In this document: positions 31,134 through 41,135 of the stretch, piece by piece
Layout: each line of letters starts with the position of its first letter
How positions within the stretch are numbered: the stretch's first letter is position 1
Assembly: GCF_964019845.1 (NCBI RefSeq)
Contig: NZ_OZ026465.1
Location: 124,001-188,000 of the forward strand
From: Spiroplasma endosymbiont of Labia minor
Lineage (GTDB): Bacteria > Bacillota_I > Bacilli_A > Mycoplasmatales > Mycoplasmataceae
Reading direction: 5' to 3'
Length of the DNA: 64,000 nt
Translations under genes and position numbers: made by a program
Notes under the pieces: generated by a model
Database searches by the model: none
The model's input: only the letters and a program-made list of their open reading frames with translations
What the model was told of the DNA's origin: nothing

Positions 31134-31415
31134 ATGATACTTTTAGCTTCAGTTGCTGAATCTGCCAACAAAGTTATTTTTGTTTTTGAAATTATTGCAT
31201 TAATTATTGGAGTTTGCATGATTATAGTTGGATTAGTACAAAATAAGCAAGCACAAACGGGACTAAGCGCATTAAATGGTGGGAATGAAGAATTATTTTC
31301 AAATTCAAAAGAACGTGGTTTAGACAAGGTGATGTCTATTTGAATGATGAGTTTAGGAATAATTTTATTTGTAATGACTATAATAATTTGTATTTTAACA
31401 AACACTATTGTTTAA
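31134..31415 (+). CDS. secG: Preprotein translocase subunit SecG (93 aa)
   Basis: SecG is the small auxiliary subunit of the SecYEG channel. Two membrane segments (residues ~12-36 and 67-90) flank the conserved cytoplasmic loop (QTGLSALNGGNEELFSNSK). The stop overlaps a terminator, yet rnr and smpB follow, the order known from Firmicutes. ATG 31134 has GGAGATT upstream. Confidence 0.92.
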
Positions 31416-31427
31416 ATAGTGTTTTTT
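31400..31427 (+). terminator. Terminator overlapping the secG stop
   Basis: Arms AAACACTATT and AATAGTGTTT pair over 10 bp around a 5-base loop, with TTTTTT at the end. It probably attenuates read-through into rnr. Confidence 0.8.
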
Positions 31428-31454
31428 AAAATACAAATAAAATGGAGGCAAAAA

Positions 31455-33557
31455 ATGCAAAATATATTAGAACTTAAAAAAGAAAAAAATATTTGATCAT
31501 TAAACGATATAAAAAATAAGACAAAATTAGATTTCGATGTTCTAAAATCAAAATTAGACTTGTTAAAGTCAGATAATAAATTGGTTATATCAATAAATAA
31601 TCTCGTTTATTTTATAAATGATAATTTGTTATATGGTACGTTAAAAATAAATGAGCGTGGTTTTGGTTTTGTATATAATGATTTAAATTTAGAAGAATCT
31701 TTTTTTGTTCCTCCAACATCACTGAATGGATGCTTAACAAACGATATTGTTATTTACAAAAAAATTAAAGAAGACGATGGCAGATTTAGAGCTGAAATTT
31801 TAGATTTAATTAAACGCGATCAAGAAACATTGGTTGGAATAATTGTTGAATCAAAAGATAAAAAATTTTTAGATTTTTCTCCATCAGTTTCTGGTTATTC
31901 TAGTTTTAGAATAGTAATGATAAATAAAAAAGATTTTCAGTTAAAAAAAGATTTATTGTTAAAAGTAAAAATTTTAAATGTTAAAGAACGTAAATTATTT
32001 GTAAAAATACAAAAAATAATAGGTGATGCAAATAAAGCATACGACAGAATTTTATCAATAGCTCAAGAACTAGATATTCAAACAGAATTTAAAGCTGAGA
32101 CATTGGAAAATTCAAATAAAGTCGCAACGGGTATTAATTTTAATGACCCGAAAATTAAAAAACGTTTGTTAAATGATTTAAGAAATGAAATTATAGTGAC
32201 AATTGACGGTGATGACTCTAAAGATTTGGACGATGCAATTTCTGTTAAAAAAACTAACAATGGATTTAAATTAACTGTTGTAATTGCGGATGTTTCTTAT
32301 TATGTACAACCAAAAAGTCCGTTGGATCTTGAAGCATTATCAAGAGGCAATTCAACATATTTAGCAAACGTTGTTCTGCCAATGTTACCTGAAAAATTAT
32401 CTAATGGTGTTTGTTCTTTAAATTATGGCGAAGATAAATTAGCAATTGCTTGTGAAATAAATTATGATAACGATGGGAAAATTGTTTCAAAAAAAGTTTT
32501 TGAAACAATAATTAAATCAAATGCAAGATTGACTTATAAAAATGTTAATAATTTTTTTGCGGGTGATAGACAAATATTTGCACAAAATAATGAAATCGCA
32601 AATATGTTGGATGTTGCTTTTGAATTACATAAAATACTTGAAAGAAAAAAAATAGCTAGAGGAGTAATCTCTTTTGAAATATCTGAACCAAAAATCATTT
32701 TGGATGCAGAGTTCAATGTTGTTGATATAAAAAAAAGAGAACGAGGTATTTCTGAGGAATTAATAGAAAATTTTATGGTTGCTGCAAATGAAGCTGTAGC
32801 TGAAATAATATTTGAAAAAAAATTACCATTTGTTTATAGAAATCATGATTTACCAAATAACAATCTTTTAAATAATTGATATGCTATGATACGTAATTTG
32901 GGAATTGATTTAAAAATGACTGATGCAGAAATTTCTGATGTCAAAATGATTACAACAGCATTAAAAAGAATAAGCGAACAAATTACAGATCCTGCAGAGC
33001 TAGAAATATTAAATGTTGCCTTATTAAGATCAATGGATAAAGCATTATATTCTAGAGAGAATATAGGGCATTTTGGATTAGCATCTAAATGTTATACGCA
33101 TTTTACCTCTCCAATAAGAAGATATTCAGATTTAATGGTTCACAGATATTTAAGACAATATATTTTTGAAAACAAAATAGATTCACAAAAATTATCACTA
33201 AATGAAAAATTTATTGATAAAGCATGTTTAATAATTAACGAAACTGAAAAAAAATCTGTTACATGTGAAAGAGAAGTAAACAAAGTATGTATGACAGAAT
33301 ATACAGTTCAAAATATTGGAAAAGAATATGAAGGATACATATCAGCTGTCTTAAAATTTGGGTTATTTATTCAGTTGTTTAATCTGATTGAAGGTTTAGT
33401 TCATATTTCCACTATACCTAATAATCCTGTTTTTGATGAAAAAATGAATACAATTATTTTAGATAATAATAAACAATTTAAATTTGGTCAAAAAATAAAA
33501 ATAAGAATTAAAGACGCTTCTGTTAAAAGAAGAATGATTGATTTTGAATTAATTTAA
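31455..33557 (+). CDS. rnr: Ribonuclease R (700 aa)
   Basis: RNase R is a 3'-5' exonuclease of the RNB family that also removes mRNAs rescued by tmRNA. A cold-shock-like N-terminal part (YGTLKINERGFGFVYND) is followed by the catalytic block with its metal-binding aspartates (IDGDDSKDLDDAISV, near residue 252). The YTHFTSPIRRYSDLMVHRYL block lies near 545, and an S1 RNA-binding domain is at the end (EYEGYISAVLKFGLFIQL). ATG 31455 follows TGGAGGCAA. smpB follows 20 bases later, so nuclease and rescue factor are coexpressed. Confidence 0.94.
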
Positions 33558-33577: not shown

Positions 33578-34021
33578 ATGGGTGACAAAATTATTGTTCA
33601 GAATAAAAAAGCAAGATTTAATTATGAATTATTAGATTTTTTTGAAGCCGGAATTGTTCTGATGGGATGTGAGATAAAATCAATACGCTTGCATGATGTT
33701 TCTTTAGATGGAACTTTTATATTAATACGTAATCATCAAGTAATATTAAAAAATATGAATATTAAAAAATATGAATTTTCAAATCAACAAACAATAGAAT
33801 CAGATAGAGATAGAATTTTACTTTTGAGTAAAAAAGAAATAAAAAAAATAGAAAATAGAATTCAATTAGAAAAAGTTGTAGTTATTCCAACAAAATTATA
33901 TTTAAAAAATAATTATGCTAAACTTGAAATTGCTATTGGCTTAGGTAAAAAATTGTATGATAAACGAGAAACTATAAAACAAAGAGATATTTCAAAAAAA
34001 TTAAATAAATTTAAAGGATAG
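33578..34021 (+). CDS. smpB: SsrA-binding protein SmpB (147 aa)
   Basis: SmpB binds tmRNA and brings it to stalled ribosomes. The OB-fold core (KARFNYELLDFFEAGIVLMG, CEIKSIR) and the C-terminal basic tail (LGKKLYDKRETIKQRDISKK) are typical. The length is normal. It lies between rnr and an amino-acid permease, with the tmRNA gene 1.46 kb further on. Confidence 0.96.
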   Translation: MGDKIIVQNKKARFNYELLDFFEAGIVLMGCEIKSIRLHDVSLDGTFILIRNHQVILKNMNIKKYEFSNQQTIESDRDRILLLSKKEIKKIENRIQLEKVVVIPTKLYLKNNYAKLEIAIGLGKKLYDKRETIKQRDISKKLNKFKG

Positions 34022-34029
34022 TATTTTGC

Positions 34030-35415
34030 ATGGAACAATTAAAAGAAAGCGAACTTACTGTAAAACCAAAAATCGGATTTTGAACGATTTTTTTAATGGC
34101 TTTATCTTCAACAATTGGTGGTGGATTATTGATATCTTTTGGTCAAGTTGCACAACTCGCGCAAAATCCTGTCCTTACTATTGTGTCATTTTTAATTGGT
34201 GGAATTATTCTAATACCTGAAATGATGTTAATGTCAGAAACAGCTTATAATATACCTGCAAATGGAAGTACTTATTCATGAATTAGAGAAGCTGGTTGAT
34301 CTGCGATTTCATTTTGATTTGGTTGAATTTTAGTTTTAATTGTAGCGATGACAGCGCTTTCATCTGTAATGCTTTCGCTTGCAAACTTATTTACAAACTT
34401 ATTTTCATTAAATTCACTATGATATGGAAAATTAATTGTGTTTTCATTTACAATTATTTTAATTTGTTTTCATGCGTTTATAAAAAATTACTCTCAAATT
34501 AGTCAAATTATTTTTACAATTTTAAAATTTATTCCTATTTTTGTTATTTTATTGATTACTTTTATTCATGCAAATTTTAATGATTTTGCAGCTGGCAAAA
34601 ATGAATCTACTTCATTGTATTTATCAACTTTTTGCTTAATTCCAGCTATATCTATGACTATGTTTGCATATTCTGGAACAGAATCAATAACTTATGTTGC
34701 AGGTGATGTTAAAAATCCACAACGAAATATACCAAAAGCTTTAATAATATCTACAGCTACTATTATATTAATTTATGTTGTTTTATTAATAGCTCTTTTA
34801 TTAATAGCTCCATTTGATAAATGAAGCGGAACACTTAATGTTTGAATTAGCGCAATTATATCGCAAAATTTAGCGTCAGGTTGAATTATAACTATTGAAA
34901 TAGCATCATTTTTTTTATTTGCAGGATCAATAAATGCTTTTATTTTCTATTTTTCAAAATTAATACAGCAAATGGCCTTTAATGGTGATTTATTTAGTTT
35001 CTTTTCTAAAGAAAATAAAAATGAAAATCCTTATTTAGCAACTTTATTATTGCTTGTGGGTTCATTAATTTATTTCTTATGAGATAAATTAATGAATATA
35101 ACAAATTATTATGTTTTTGCCAATAGTTTATTAAAATTTGTTTTAATATTTATATTAATTTATCATAGACTTAAAAGAGAGAATTACGTAAAGTTATTTA
35201 ATGAAATTTGATATTGACTATTTATTTGCATTTCTATAATTTCATTGTTAATTACAACAATTGGTCCTATACTAACAATTGTTGAATTGGCAAATTTAAA
35301 TAGTGCAAATACAAAAGAAATGCTAATAAATTCTAGTATTATATTAACAATTATATTGGCGGGAATTCCAATAGCTTTTTTAAAAAAATACATTCAAAAT
35401 AAAATTAAAAAATAG
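34030..35415 (+). CDS. APC-family amino-acid permease (461 aa)
   Basis: This is a secondary transporter for amino acids with about 12 membrane segments. The first segment has SSTIGGGLLISFGQVAQLA, the glycine-rich substrate-binding helix of the family, and the sixth has MTMFAYSGTESITYVAGDVK, the family's characteristic loop. It is open from ATG 34030 to TAG 35415 with many TGA Trp codons. It separates smpB from the tmRNA gene, which are often adjacent. The substrate is not evident from the sequence. Confidence 0.83.
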
Positions 35416-35465
35416 TTTTAGCAAGTTACGAAAGAATAATTCTCTAAAATTATAGATTTAATTGT

Positions 35466-35471
35466 TATAAT
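35466..35471 (+). promoter_or_regulatory. -10 box of the tmRNA gene
   Basis: A perfect TATAAT ends nine bases before the first base of the tmRNA, the usual distance. No good -35 box is visible. Confidence 0.6.
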
Positions 35472-35479
35472 AATGATAT

Positions 35480-35902
35480 GGGGATGTCCTGGTTTCGACG
35501 GGATAATTTCGCCTCATTGTTGCAGTAGTGTGGTGCACTATAACACTTCTAGGTTTGAATAAACGCAAACGAAAAACGCGAAAGCGAAAAAATTGAAATG
35601 CCAGCATTTATGATCAATAACGCATCAGCTGGGGCAAATTTATTTGCTTAGATATTAGTTAGTTACTACTAATTGAAGCAATTCACGTTAACTAATCTTT
35701 GTTTTGTTGGATGAAACTAACGTATAGGCTAAACATTACTAGCAGTTCATATGATAATGTTGAATTTGCAAAATTTAATTATCTATTTTAGTAAATATTT
35801 TGTTAGCTTTAATTTACTAAAATTTTAAATAAGTTAACTAAACTGTAGACGCAATGAGGGGGAGTATCTCGGACGCGGGTTCAATTCCCGTCATCTCCAC
35901 CA
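35480..35902 (+). ncRNA. ssrA: Transfer-messenger RNA
   Basis: tmRNA frees ribosomes stalled on broken mRNAs and tags the nascent peptide for degradation. The 5' end GGGGATGTCCTGGTTTCGAC and the 3' end CGGGTTCAATTCCCG then CATCTCCACCA form the tRNA-like half. The acceptor stem GGGGATG/CATCTCC pairs with one G-U, and CCA is encoded. The tag frame starts at GCA 35565 and ends TAG 35651. It encodes 28 residues: ANEKRESEKIEMP, then AFMINNASAGANLFA. The second half resembles the mollicute tags recognised by Lon (PTFMLNA..ANYAFA in Mesoplasma). smpB lies 1.46 kb upstream. Confidence 0.95.
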
Positions 35903-35943
35903 TTTTTTTATGTTTTTATAAATGAAAGGACGATTATTCTTTT

Positions 35944-37977
35944 ATGCAAAGTGTTTCACAAAATCTGGGCAATTGAATTATAATAGCACTTTCATTTACA
36001 TTAATATTAGTAGTTATTTACGCAACTATTTTTGGCTTTACCCGTCATATATTTGAACGTAATAAAATTTTCTATCATATAACGCTAGGTTTAATTTTCG
36101 GTTTAACATCGATATTATTTTATTTAATTTCTATTTTAAAACTCCCCTTAAATAATTTGGGTTATTTTTTATTAATTAATTTGTTGATTTTTTTAGTTTT
36201 TTGAATTTGTTTAGTTTTCATTTCTATTTATACCGCACTTATTGTTGCAAGTATTAATGCAATATTATTATTTCTATTACCAAATGTTGTTGAAAATTTA
36301 TTTTCAATAGATTTCAATTTGTTTAATATATTGATTATTGTTCTAGCTTATGTTACAACTACAACATTATGAATTATAAGCAGGTTTTTTAAAATTTTGA
36401 ATTTGTGATGACAGTGATCAATTGCTACTGTTATCTTGCTTTCTTTTGGTTTAATTTTACAATTTATTGAATTGAGAACTGAGAAAAATATTGCAAGTAT
36501 AATTATTTTGTTAATAGATTTATCTTTTAGTTATTTTGCATATTTTATTTTACAATTTTTTGAAACTATTTATTTGCATGCAAAAAAATTACAAAATTTA
36601 ACTTCTTACAATCATACTTATTTTGTTCGTGAAGCAATGGCAAATCACTATTTGTCTAAAAAAATTAATAATGGTAAAATTAAATATGGATATTATTTAA
36701 TGTATTTCATTGATGGCTTTGAATCTGTTGAAAAAAAGATTGATAACTTATTATTAAATACAATAATAGAATCTATAGCTGACCAATCGTATAAATATTT
36801 TTCAGAAGTTTATAAAGATTTAACTTTTTTTAAAATAAATTATAGAGTATTTGGTGTATTTATTCCTATTGAATTTGGCAAAGAAAATTGAATGGAAAAA
36901 TCATTACAGGGTAATTTCCTGAAATCAAGACCAATAGAAGATGAACTATCAAAATTAGAAACGGTATTTAAAAAAATAAAAACCATTTTTTTGATTGATG
37001 AATATTTATTGAAATTAAAACTAAAAGGTGTAGTTTCAATTTATGGAATAACATCTAATGACATTAATAAATTGCAATCAATAAATACATATTTTTCACA
37101 TCAACAATTAACTAATAAATATGAAAATAAATTACTTCTAGTTGATTCTGCTGAGTTAAAACATTATCAAGATCAAGACCGTAAAGTATCAATTATGCGA
37201 GATATTACAAATATTGCATTTAATTCTATTGTTTATTATTCTATTTGTGGCATAAAATCTGGTGAAATACTTGGCTACTATTTGAAATTAATGATTCAAG
37301 GAGAATTTATTCAATTTCAAAATGGTGATGATAATTATGATCAAATTGTTGAGTATAATCTAGAATCTATTTATATAAGATATATAGCAAATTTGTTTGC
37401 AGAATCTGTGGAAAAAAATAGAAATATTATAAAAAATAAATTAACATTCATACAGTATGATTCATTATTTGCGTCCTCAAAAAATTTTAATATAGAAGAA
37501 TTTTTAAATAAACTCAATAATCATAAAATTAGAGATTTAAATCTTGTTTTTACTTTTAATATTAATTCTGATGCCAAATCTTTTGATTTATTGAAGGAAA
37601 ATATAGGTAAAATTAAAAATGCTGGATATAAAATTGCATTAAATAATGTTGGTATTTATAGTATTCAGTATGAATTATTAAATGTATATAAACCAAATTA
37701 TATTATTCTTGATTCTAAAGTAACTAAAGAATTTGCATCAAAATCAATTTATAAAAATTTAACAGATTATATTATAAATATTTGTAAAAAATTAGAAATT
37801 AGTATAATTGCATCAGATATAGATGGATTTTTCAAATTTAAACAGATTCAAAATTATAATATTGATTATGCATATGGAAATATTATTGGTTCTTCGTTAG
37901 AACCAAAATATGATTTAGATAAAGAAGCTAGATATATTCTTTTCAAAGAAAAAAATAATTCTACTTCTATTAAATAA
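35944..37977 (+). CDS. Membrane protein with degenerate GGDEF and EAL domains (677 aa)
   Basis: The N-terminal ~215 residues hold six or seven membrane segments. A GGDEF-like region follows (about 230-345), in which the active GGDEF motif is replaced (YRVFGVFIPI). The C-terminal region (about 430-670) has the EAL pattern (GYKIALNNVGIYSIQYELL; KPNYIILDSK; IDYAYGNIIGSSLEP), but the residues needed for metal binding and catalysis are not conserved (for example DDFG is NNVG). The protein therefore probably neither makes nor degrades cyclic di-GMP. It could bind a nucleotide or a partner protein. It begins 41 bases after tmRNA and precedes mgtE. Confidence 0.7.
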
Positions 37978-38011
37978 TAATTTAAAATTAATAATAATGG
38001 AGGTGAATGAA

Positions 38012-39472
38012 ATGATAAATAAAACTGAAATAAAAAAGGAACAAGATAAAATCAAAGAATTGATTGATGATCCAAAAAAAATGTTGGAATTAAGAGATTT
38101 TTTTGCTAATTTTCCTAATGCAGATATTGCTGAACTTATTGAAGATTTGGATATGCCAATAATTCTAAAAATAATTCGTTCATTAAATACAGATATAGCT
38201 GCAGAAGTTTTTACATATCTTTCACCCGATACACAAGAACAAATTATTGAACAATTTACAGCAAATGAAGTTAAAGATATTTTTGAAGAAATGTATACAG
38301 ATGATATTATTGATGTTTTGGATGAAATGCCCGCAAATATTGTTAAAAAAATTTTAAGAAATACCAATAAAGAAACTAGAAATGATATTAATTTTATTTT
38401 AAAATATGATGATCAAACAGCGGGTGGTATTATGTCTGTTGATTTCATCAAAATTAGAGAAGATTTAACCATTCATGATGCAATAATAAAAATGAGAGGT
38501 TTAAAAAATGCAGATGAACTTTTTGACTTGATATTTGTTGTTGATAAATTTTCAAATTTGAAAGGAAAAATTTATTTAAAAGACTTAATTTTAAATAACA
38601 CAGATGCAACTGTTGAAGAAATTATGGATAAAAGAATTGTTTCAACAATTACTTCAACAGATCAAGAAGAAGTTGCGTCACTTTTTAAAAAATATGATTT
38701 AAATGTTTTACCTGTTGTGAATAATCAAAACAAACTCGTGGGAGTTATAACTGTTGATGACATTATAGATGTTATTGAAGAAGAGGCTACAGAAGATATT
38801 CATAAAATGGCTGGTATTTCTCCAACTGAGGATTCTTATTTCAAAACATCAGTATTTAAAATGGTAAGATCAAGGTCAGTTTGATTATTATTTTTGATGA
38901 TTTCGGCTACGTTATCTCAAATAGTCATTTCTGTATTTGTTGGAATATACACAAAGAATTCAGTAGATAATGGAAATTCAACAATAAATAATAATACAGA
39001 TATAACATATATATTAACTGTTTTATTAACACCTTTACTAACAGTAATTTCAGGAACATCCGGAAATGCTGGTTCTCAATCATCAACAATGGTTATAAGA
39101 TCCATGGCTTTAAGAGAAGTAAAAACTAAAGATTTGGCTAAAGTTTTGTGAAAAGAACTTCGAGTGGCTTTTTTATGTGGTTTAATTTTAGTTGTAGTTA
39201 ATTTTGTGAGAATGACAATAATTTATGCAATTCAATATAAAGGAGATATTAATCGCTGATATTTATGAGAATCAATTGCTACTTTATCAATTTCAATGTT
39301 CATTACATTAATAATTGCTAAATTAGTAGGTGGAACTTTACCAATTTTAGCGAAAACTATTAAATTAGATCCAGCTGTAATGGCAGCTCCTTTATTAACA
39401 ACACTTGTGGATGCATTATCTACTGCGGTTTTCTTCTCAATAGGTTTAATATTTTTTGGAGGCATGATTTAA
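38012..39472 (+). CDS. mgtE: Magnesium transporter MgtE (486 aa)
   Basis: MgtE is a Mg2+ channel gated by cytoplasmic Mg2+. The order is standard: an acidic N-terminal superhelical domain (residues 1-~135; FFANFPNADIAELIEDLD), two CBS domains (~140-265; DDQTAGGIMSVDF and LPVVNNQNKLVGVITVDD), then five membrane segments with the pore motif TSGNAGSQSSTMVIRSMAL. ATG 38012 is preferred over 37997 because GGAGGTGA stands at the right distance. trmB starts 3 bases after the stop. Confidence 0.93.
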
Positions 39473-39475
39473 TTT

Positions 39476-40132
39476 ATGCGATTGAGAAATAAAGAAAATG
39501 AAAAAACATTATTTTTACAAAATAATGAGAATGTAATTCATGAAATAAAAGAGCAGTGTAATCCTGCAATTTTTTTTGATAATAACAATCCAATAGAGCT
39601 TGAAATTGGCTGTGGTAAAGGCAAATTTATTATTTCAAAAGCTCTAGAAAATCCTGATATAAATTTTATAGCAATAGAAAAAGAATTAACGGTTGCTGGA
39701 GTTGCGCTAAAAAAAGCTTTAAATATATTTAAAAATAATATACCCGATAATCTTAAATTTATGTCGTATGATGTTAGAAAAATTTCATCATTATTTTTGA
39801 ATAAAACAATTAGCAAAATTTATTTGAATTTTTCTGATCCGTGACCTAAAAAGAAACACGAAAAAAATAGATTAACACATCATTATTTTCAAGAAATATA
39901 TTCAAATTTATTATATAGTGATGCAAAAATAGTTCTGAAAACAGATAACGATTCTTTATTTAATTATTCATTCAAAACCATTATGGATAATTATTTTTTT
40001 AGAGTAGAATATTTTACAACTGATTTATATAATTCAATTTATTTGACTGAAAATATTTCTACAGAATATGAAGATAAATTCACAGCAAGTGGAAAAAATA
40101 TTAATATGTTAATTGCAAGTAATCAAATTTAA
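39476..40132 (+). CDS. trmB: tRNA (guanine-N7-)-methyltransferase (218 aa)
   Basis: The enzyme makes m7G46 in tRNAs. The SAM-binding motif LEIGCGKGKFI is near residue 42, followed by NFIAIEKELTVAG. The family box YLNFSDPWPKKKHEKNRLT, crossing a TGA Trp codon, is near residue 120. The length is normal. It is the last gene of this plus-strand run; a convergent minus-strand gene starts its stop 14 bases away. Confidence 0.93.
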
Positions 40133-40145
40133 GGTGTAAAATAAA

Positions 40146-41135
40146 TTACATTTTTTTATGGTTTTTTTTATTGATAAGTTTTTCAAGTCTTTCATTATAT
40201 AGTGCAAAATTTTCATCTTGATACATAAAATCAAAAATTAATCTGTATTTTTTTGAAAATTCTATTCATAAATAAATAAAAGATAACGCTTCTATTCTTT
40301 GCTTATAATCAAATAAGACAATTTTTTTTAATCATTCAAATTTAGTTTGTAGTTTTTTTGAATCGTATTTTCTATCTAAAATATGATTACATCAAGCCTG
40401 TATTATTTTATATTGGCTTTTTTTTAATCTTTTTGCATCTTTTTTTAGAATATCCAAAAATAAATATGCTAGAAATATTTGTTTATTTAGTGAATTTTGC
40501 GTAATTATGGTAAAAAAATATTGCGCTTGAAAATTAAGATTAATATCTGATCAACTTCCAGGTGTAAATATTTCTTCAAATGAAATTGTGTATAAAGGTG
40601 TTTTTAATCTTTTGCTATCTGTTTGTGAAATCATTGATCGAATTATTTCGTTTTCGTATCATGATTCAAAATTTTCTTCCTCCTCTTCAATAAAATTTTC
40701 TTCTAAATTTACTTTTCCAGAAATTTCACCACCGTCAACTTGCAAGTTGATTAATGGTGCATTATGATTTAAATTATATTTTATTATGTATGATTTATCA
40801 TTTTTTTGTACATAAATTATTTCATTTCTTCAAAATAGACCCATTATTATTGGAAAATATTTCGATCTAATTAAAAAATAATTAATTTTAGAAATTAACT
40901 GTTCTAAAGATATTTGTTTTGAAGCGTATATTCTAAGTTCTAAATCAATAGCAATTAACATTTGACTGAAATCAATATCTCTTGCAATTATAAAATTGTT
41001 TTTCTTAATTTTTTGTTCGTTATTTTCTTTTATTACAATCGCGGTTAAATTTTCAATTGTAAAAATAAAATTAGCTTCTATTAACGCTGGGTCAAATTCT
41101 TTTAAACTATCATTTGCTTCTAATGGATTTGTCAT
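40146..41135 (-). CDS. Unknown soluble protein (329 aa)
   Basis: The frame from ATG 41135 (AAGGGGG eight bases upstream) to TAA 40146 is open with TGA as Trp. The N-terminal half looks beta-rich (NFIFTIENLTAIVI; SLEQLISKINYFLIR), followed by an acidic stretch near residue 150 (EENFIEEEEENFESW) and a helical, Lys-rich C-terminal half. No signal peptide or membrane segment is seen. I do not recognise the family. It is the only sizeable minus-strand gene between 31 and 54 kb and has its own -10 box. Confidence 0.65.

Follow-up and report, generated by a model that had tools for sequence, protein, structure and literature searches.

The gene described here lies in a window of 64,000 nucleotides, which is the whole stretch of DNA that was analysed (NZ_OZ026465.1, positions 124,001 to 188,000), from the genome of the Spiroplasma endosymbiont of Labia minor (984,411 bases, one contig). 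Its reading frame contains seven TGA codons read as Trp. The predicted product is a membrane protein with seven hydrophobic segments, a GGDEF-like region and an EAL region, and is hereafter called the GGDEF-EAL protein (Table 1). A preliminary description, made from the letters alone, had placed the gene directly behind the tmRNA. This is borne out by a gap of 41 nt between the end of the tmRNA and the ATG, although the position is not peculiar to this genome and belongs to an old gene cluster found in several families of the order. No terminator-like site was found between the two genes in the interval 35380–36050, so it is possible that transcription from ssrA runs on into the GGDEF-EAL gene. 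On the opposite strand, an ORF of 329 aa (40146–41135) matched no NCBIfam model and no Pfam family over cut-off, one Pfam match standing at E 0.18.

Table 1. Genes and protein regions at the GGDEF-EAL locus, in window coordinates
Feature	Position	Strand	Basis or remark
secG, upstream part of putative ancestral cluster	31134..31415	+	TIGR00810 over cut-off
rnr (RNase R), upstream part of putative ancestral cluster	31419..33557	+	TIGR02063 over cut-off
smpB, upstream part of putative ancestral cluster	33578..34021	+	TIGR00086 over cut-off
tmRNA (ssrA), directly upstream of GGDEF-EAL gene	35480..35902	+	
7TM – degenerate GGDEF – degenerate EAL membrane protein	35944..37977	+	677 aa, code 4
Membrane part, seven predicted segments, residues 11–206	35974..36561	+	Hydropathy, family average and single sequence
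Predicted GGDEF-fold region, residues 216–398; signature replaced by N299-Y-R-V-F303	36589..37137	+	hhalign, AlphaFold2 fragment, fold search
EAL region, residues 395–668; Pfam match residues 509–649; catalytic residues replaced	37126..37947	+	Pfam, family profile
mgtE magnesium transporter, 19 nt downstream of GGDEF-EAL gene	37997..39472	+	TIGR00400 E 4e-111
trmB, after mgtE in conserved order	39476..40132	+	NF001080 and TIGR00091 over cut-offs

Domain architecture and catalytic residues

Hydropathy averaged over the family gave peaks at residues 11–29, 46–64, 75–93, 98–116, 127–145, 157–175 and 188–206, and seven peaks were also present on the single sequence. The EAL fold is firmly established. 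Pfam assigned PF00563 to the window protein with 46.7 bits, where the cut-off is 31.3 (E 3.3e-12), and a 26-row family profile matched solved EAL structures at E 1.3e-15 over profile positions 412–633. EAL was found by Pfam in only four of the seven further family members scanned, and this part is shortened or below Pfam detection in some members of f3, f10 and f11 (f1–f11 are working labels for families of the order).

The GGDEF region was not seen by direct searches. Pfam at E <= 10 gave no PF00990 match in the window protein and found GGDEF in none of the seven further members. The NCBIfam scan gave none either, as its match to PRK09776, labelled 'diguanylate cyclase', spans only the EAL end of that model, and hhalign with the 26-row family alignment did not recover the domain (E 0.21). 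With the 49-row non-redundant family alignment, hhalign matched a template of 29 GGDEF domains (from 29 of 30 loci fetched from the class, picked by motif) at E 1.5e-5 with a probability of 79% over 118 columns, extending to 165 columns under a relaxed setting. None of 200 column-shuffled templates reached this value (best E 0.056); the reversed template gave E 0.33 and five decoy families gave E 0.061–0.57. The membrane and EAL regions compared with the GGDEF template stayed at E >= 0.56, and the lowest chance value in these controls was that of the EAL region against smpB (E 0.014, probability 3%).

An AlphaFold2 model of residues 216–398, made from a four-row alignment, had a pLDDT of 67 and a pTM of 0.67. 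GGDEF-containing entries were present in all 50 VIA rows listed for this fragment, at Z 7.9–9.3, where models without a true match typically reach a best Z of 7–8. Foldseek returned two rows at E <= 0.001, both GGDEF, with TM values of 0.44–0.53 near the top and some class III nucleotide cyclases from rank 22 on. The full-length model (four rows, pLDDT 44.8) is too poor to trust, and its Foldseek list, which is headed by GGDEF-EAL tandems at E 1e-12, counts as agreement only. From the profile–profile match with its controls and from the predicted fold, we assign a GGDEF fold to residues 216–398 with moderate strength.

EAL phosphodiesterases use E, N, E, D-D, K, E and Q as metal-binding and catalytic residues. 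Compared with a single canonical reference (L140), the window protein has T537, I540, N567, N568, I588, S624, D627 and Y644 where E, E, D, D, K, E, E and Q are canonical; the E and N of motif 1 fall in gapped alignment columns and were judged by eye. The GGDEF signature reads N-Y-R-V-F, and F255 occupies the position of the metal-binding Asp. The window protein thus lacks the GG(D/E)EF signature and metal Asp of a diguanylate cyclase as well as the residues of an EAL c-di-GMP phosphodiesterase.

We extended the comparison to 62 family rows, two of which (L095 and L097) are additional gene copies from genomes already represented. Of the two Asp residues of DDFG, the first was kept in 0/59 rows and the second in 6/57; the Glu of ELTE was retained in none of 60, the Lys in two of 57 and the Gln in one of 42. 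The Gly that follows this Gln, a residue of the fold, was kept in 39/40. The metal Asp of GGDEF was present in six of the 62 rows and the string [GA]G[DE]EF in none of them, while the pattern E-[AVGS]-[LFIM]-x-R occurred in five, at other places. These results agree with the preliminary description, which had given the protein six or seven membrane segments (seven by hydropathy) followed by GGDEF-like and EAL-like regions with their catalytic motifs lost: the EAL region was found by profile search with PF00563 over cut-off, the GGDEF-like region was recovered by profile–profile comparison and predicted fold rather than by a direct Pfam search, and the compared positions of both are replaced.

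Distribution, descent and selection

The window's family is the one containing Spiroplasma and is represented by 60 genomes (G000–G059, G000 being that of the window). A search with the single protein matched 48 of 198 genomes of the order, comprising 41 of the 60 in the window's family and seven in f3. The presence of matches in 41 genomes of its own family shows that the ORF is not a chance reading. Profile searches added members in f7, f8, f10 and f11 and more in f3, which makes five families beyond the window's. Over 396 genomes the profile search matched 94, of which 41 belong to the window's family, 24 to the rest of the order and 29 elsewhere in the class; nearly all of these last 29 match in the EAL half only, as expected of ordinary GGDEF-EAL proteins. 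Named relatives carrying a member include Spiroplasma poulsonii and S. phoeniceum. A 14-row alignment searched against genome contigs found three named Spiroplasma loci, and a scan of the contigs with the single sequence gave no match.

The gene tree was built from 48 of 49 rows, one partial row being omitted. In it, f1, f3, f7 and f11 can each be set apart by a single branch, f8 and f10 are represented by one row each, and the number of family changes, five, is the minimum possible. Support was 100/99 for f1 and only 61/81 for f7, and several branches are long. The tree groups by family with the fewest possible changes, and therefore vertical descent fits. We rejected a recent horizontal gain on the basis of this grouping, with the support of f7 and the long branches as stated.

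Among 13 close pairs, dN/dS was 0.04–0.20 in nine and 0.31–0.50 in three with dS <= 0.06; one pair was saturated. The nine low values led us to reject a decaying pseudogene, and they indicate that the GGDEF-EAL gene is a working gene under purifying selection; with members in six families of the order, it is no one-off relic either. The gene is absent from one Spiroplasma-group genome (G042) and broken in another (G048), where a C-terminal part and an N-terminal piece lie ~200 kb apart (L041 and G048:C1:1378135-1378488); it is therefore dispensable in those genomes.

A second family of ~500–625 aa was also observed in f4, f5, f7, f10 and f11 (L099, L100, L103, L106–L112). Its members have one membrane segment by eye and a degenerate EAL-like C-terminus that aligns with the EAL region of the window's protein family at E 7e-12 (hhalign); GGDEF is marginal (E 0.0012).

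Nucleotide-signalling genes and the link to cdaM

Searches of the window's genome gave no GGDEF match at E <= 10 and no PilZ match, in line with the statement in the preliminary description that mollicutes generally lack c-di-GMP signalling. The window protein was the one EAL match over cut-off, a weak second match lying at G000:C1:634800 (E 0.02). Weak EAL matches at L101, L113 and L117 were judged unrelated by eye. Across the order, GGDEF matches were weak and confined to eight of 198 genomes. Six of the eight were read, five being GdpP-like by eye (GGDEF with DHH) and one a chance match in a long ORF; G130 and G136 hold the other two. With six of these eight weak matches read, no diguanylate cyclase was recognised in the 198 sampled genomes.

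The diadenylate cyclase domain (DAC, PF02457) gave no match in the window's genome, so c-di-AMP is apparently not made there. The domain was found in 123 of the 198 genomes of the order, that is, in 0/60 of the window's family and in 123/138 of the others, and c-di-AMP synthesis thus seems to have been lost across the window's whole family, spiroplasmas included. The remark that all mollicutes use c-di-AMP, as it stands in the available part of PMC11535214, would need amending for this family. The window's genome has one DHH protein, whose best NCBIfam match, below cut-off, is oligoribonuclease NrnA. The accessible text of PMC5508000 gives M. pneumoniae two proteins of this kind, of which one is the c-di-AMP phosphodiesterase; by this comparison of one with two, a dedicated c-di-AMP phosphodiesterase may perhaps be absent from the window's genome too.

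We read the surroundings of the gene over ~10 kb in 28 of the 41 matching genomes of the window's family. The tmRNA was directly upstream in 25/28. The next gene downstream was mgtE in 17 and trmB, with an overlap of 17 nt, in 11; a cyclase gene adjoined in none of the 28. Outside the window's family, a diadenylate cyclase gene was next downstream on the same strand in 21/31 member loci, or in 16/26 without the five that were fetched via the cyclase and are therefore biased (L178, L179, L180, L192, L203). The two genes are separated by −14 to 119 nt, with four overlaps, all in f7; overlaps depend on the start codon, and the first in-frame start was assumed. In the remaining loci, the cyclase is within 3.4 kb in two cases (f8) and missing from the surroundings in five; the other three are truncated at a contig end. 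All four genomes searched among those five have a cyclase elsewhere. The three neighbours scanned with Pfam all matched PF02457 at E 6e-33 to 1.5e-37; of four compared with NCBIfam, that of L045 is CdaM over cut-off, and those of L148, L154 and L178 match CdaA/CdaM below the cut-offs. Two tandem DAC genes were seen behind the GGDEF-EAL gene at L152:3842-5101.

In the same 31 loci, mgtE lay <=1.5 kb downstream in 15 and the tmRNA upstream in 14 (12 gaps below 80 nt, 223 nt in L178 and 530 nt in L159). The full order secG-rnr-smpB-ssrA-gene-cdaM-mgtE is present in f7 (L148, L149, L159, L152) and in f11 (L154, L163, L179, L192), in the latter with cdaM and mgtE ~0.7 kb apart. In f3 the cluster has come apart, and the neighbour is the cyclase in 9/15 loci, rnr in three, smpB in two and ssrA in none. 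Gene order is inherited, so the loci are not independent. The cyclase gene often lies between the GGDEF-EAL gene and mgtE elsewhere, and DAC is found in 0/60 genomes of the window's family; the order ssrA-gene-mgtE in the window therefore looks like the older operon minus cdaM.

Among 26 fetched DAC loci without an adjoining member, three (L167, L170, L190) have the cyclase immediately after ssrA and two (L182, L200) immediately after rnr, with the place of the GGDEF-EAL gene vacant in all five. The remaining 21 show the cyclase among different neighbours, break off (L202) or contain a candidate diverged member (L181). This last is a membrane ORF of 526 aa between ssrA and DAC (L181:4129-5709), which matched the unfiltered family profile at E 0.0016 and is possibly a very diverged member of the family. 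One f9 genome (L198) has ssrA-mgtE-trmB with neither the GGDEF-EAL gene nor DAC.

The preliminary description had proposed a repurposed sensor, perhaps binding another nucleotide or controlling the adjacent Mg2+ transporter. The c-di-AMP synthase gene beside the relatives' genes and the proximity of mgtE, together with the binding of c-di-AMP to MgtE reported for B. subtilis, where the c-di-AMP level follows Mg2+ in osmoadaptation (available text of PMC8844918), make another nucleotide and Mg2+ sensible themes. The proposal fares less well on two counts, the window's genome having no diadenylate cyclase and trmB instead of mgtE coming next in 11/28 loci of the family.

Interpretation and comparison with known systems

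What was computed is the EAL fold, the GGDEF fold of moderate strength, the loss of the catalytic residues, the conservation, the linkage to cdaM and the absence of the cyclase domain. From this we tentatively favour one explanation, at slightly less than even odds: the gene would encode a membrane regulator of the 7TM-GGDEF-EAL type, old and without catalytic activity, which belonged to a c-di-AMP/Mg2+ operon and persisted in the window's lineage after the cyclase was gone. The retention of the folds with their active sites gone fits such a dead regulator. The gene would go back to the ancestor of the order, as an operon partner of a CdaM-type c-di-AMP synthase and MgtE. Its membrane part may sense a membrane or ionic state, such as osmotic stress, Mg2+ or K+, and the dead GGDEF-EAL arms, acting as a pseudo-enzyme, would relay the signal by touching another protein directly. 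Where a lineage has the cyclase, the target would presumably be CdaM, much as a regulatory role towards CdaA is ascribed to CdaR elsewhere. With no cyclase gene in the window's lineage, the protein there would act on a partner that is left, membrane ion transport being the most plausible. A wider version, which is possible but doubtful, would have a c-di-GMP enzyme turned in mollicutes into a membrane regulator of c-di-AMP synthesis in CdaR's place, the Spiroplasma family having lost c-di-AMP but kept the regulator, coupled to Mg2+ or ion transport.

Some observations speak against an operon partner. The cyclase and the GGDEF-EAL protein part freely, many genomes having the cyclase with no detected member, and in the window's family the protein is retained with the cyclase domain found in 0/60 genomes. 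Gene order alone may moreover be inertia, and mgtE is not adjacent in 11 of the 28 loci of the window's family. The protein could also be a passenger, with the order ssrA-gene-cdaM-mgtE persisting by inertia and with an unrelated job, for example in shape or motility in spiroplasmas. The inheritance of gene order within families and the keeping of protein and cyclase each without the other suit this explanation, but the genes overlap in four f7 loci, the pair with the cyclase survives better in f3 than the other pairs, and a job confined to spiroplasmas sits badly with the occurrence of the protein in six families of the order; we consider a passenger rather unlikely. A CsrD-like partner in RNA turnover or trans-translation, tethering the work of RNase R, SmpB or tmRNA to the membrane, would account for the tmRNA lying directly upstream in 25/28 loci of the window's family and upstream in 14/31 others, for the rnr and smpB neighbours in three and two f3 loci, and for the persistence of these adjacencies where the cyclase is elsewhere (L044, L046, L048, L155). 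The tmRNA, however, is present in all 60 relatives searched, whereas many lack the protein; among the f3 loci, moreover, ssrA is adjacent in 0/15 as against 9/15 for the cyclase. The NCBIfam match of one member to CsrD (20 bits, far under the cut-off of 663; E 1.5e-4) reflects general EAL similarity, and this role appears unlikely.

The dead EAL/GGDEF pocket might instead bind a cyclic dinucleotide or another nucleotide and report it at the membrane, in the manner of LapD and FimX, which are inactive GGDEF-EAL tandems serving as c-di-GMP receptors. The linked gene does make a cyclic dinucleotide. Against a receptor stand the replacement of the compared canonical residues, D-D to N-N among them, and the retention of the protein in a genome (G000) with neither a PF00990 nor a PF02457 synthase; we hold a receptor to be unlikely. 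Its ligand would be c-di-AMP in the cyclase-bearing relatives and, for the window's lineage, some other nucleotide, perhaps imported or made by the host. Hidden enzyme activity, as a cyclase or a phosphodiesterase working through non-canonical residues, could draw on the strong conservation of other positions in the family (FFK, Y367-G368, R479, Y505, N553), but almost every member, the window protein included, has lost the usual residues at the catalytic positions compared, and such activity is hardly credible.

It is the linkage to cdaM together with the loss of the cyclase that puts the GGDEF-EAL finding in a different light. To our knowledge, inactive GGDEF-EAL proteins are known only from organisms that make c-di-GMP. 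Here, a dead GGDEF-EAL protein is kept across several families of an order with no recognised diguanylate cyclase in 198 genomes, and its gene is linked to that of a c-di-AMP synthase. Sixty sampled genomes of one family, spiroplasmas among them, show no diadenylate cyclase, yet its proposed operon partner is maintained there by selection, which offers a natural experiment. On the dead-regulator explanation, the protein is a candidate regulator of CdaM, which makes c-di-AMP and is reported, in the accessible text of PMC5508000, to be essential in M. pneumoniae. A literature search by title and start of abstract, with most subscription journals outside its scope, returned no report of this family or its link to CdaM, and the available part of a 2026 paper on M. 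bovis CdaM (PMC13022847) contains no whole-word EAL, operon or MgtE.

The protein shares features with several known systems and differs from each. Structures that we take to be those of LapD and FimX are among the matches of the EAL family profile and in the Foldseek list of the full-length model. Like these, the window protein is an inactive GGDEF-EAL tandem with the same domain order. It differs from both in its replaced canonical residues and in a genome (G000) with no detected GGDEF cyclase, and it departs from the LapD layout of two helices around a periplasmic part with HAMP in having seven hydrophobic segments. CsrD, a degenerate GGDEF-EAL protein steering RNase E, is likewise membrane-bound and non-enzymatic with both domains degenerate, but the family described here has another membrane part and is linked to c-di-AMP synthase and tmRNA genes, not to the Csr system. 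CdaR, the YbbR protein encoded with CdaA, is also a membrane partner encoded beside a diadenylate cyclase; the window protein is unrelated to it (no YbbR match with Pfam at E <= 10), and its gene precedes that of the cyclase instead of following it. U1 of Ca. Oceanoplasma callogorgiae, likened here by description only and not by sequence, also comes from a mollicute and combines an EAL match with a membrane segment, but it is read as potentially degrading c-di-GMP in the available text of PMC11535214. GdpP (YybT), as described in the accessible part of PMC5508000, similarly sits in the membrane, has a degenerate GGDEF domain and is connected with c-di-AMP; in place of its DHH-DHHA1 phosphodiesterase domain, the window protein, in which only EAL is over cut-off in Pfam, carries an EAL-type domain.
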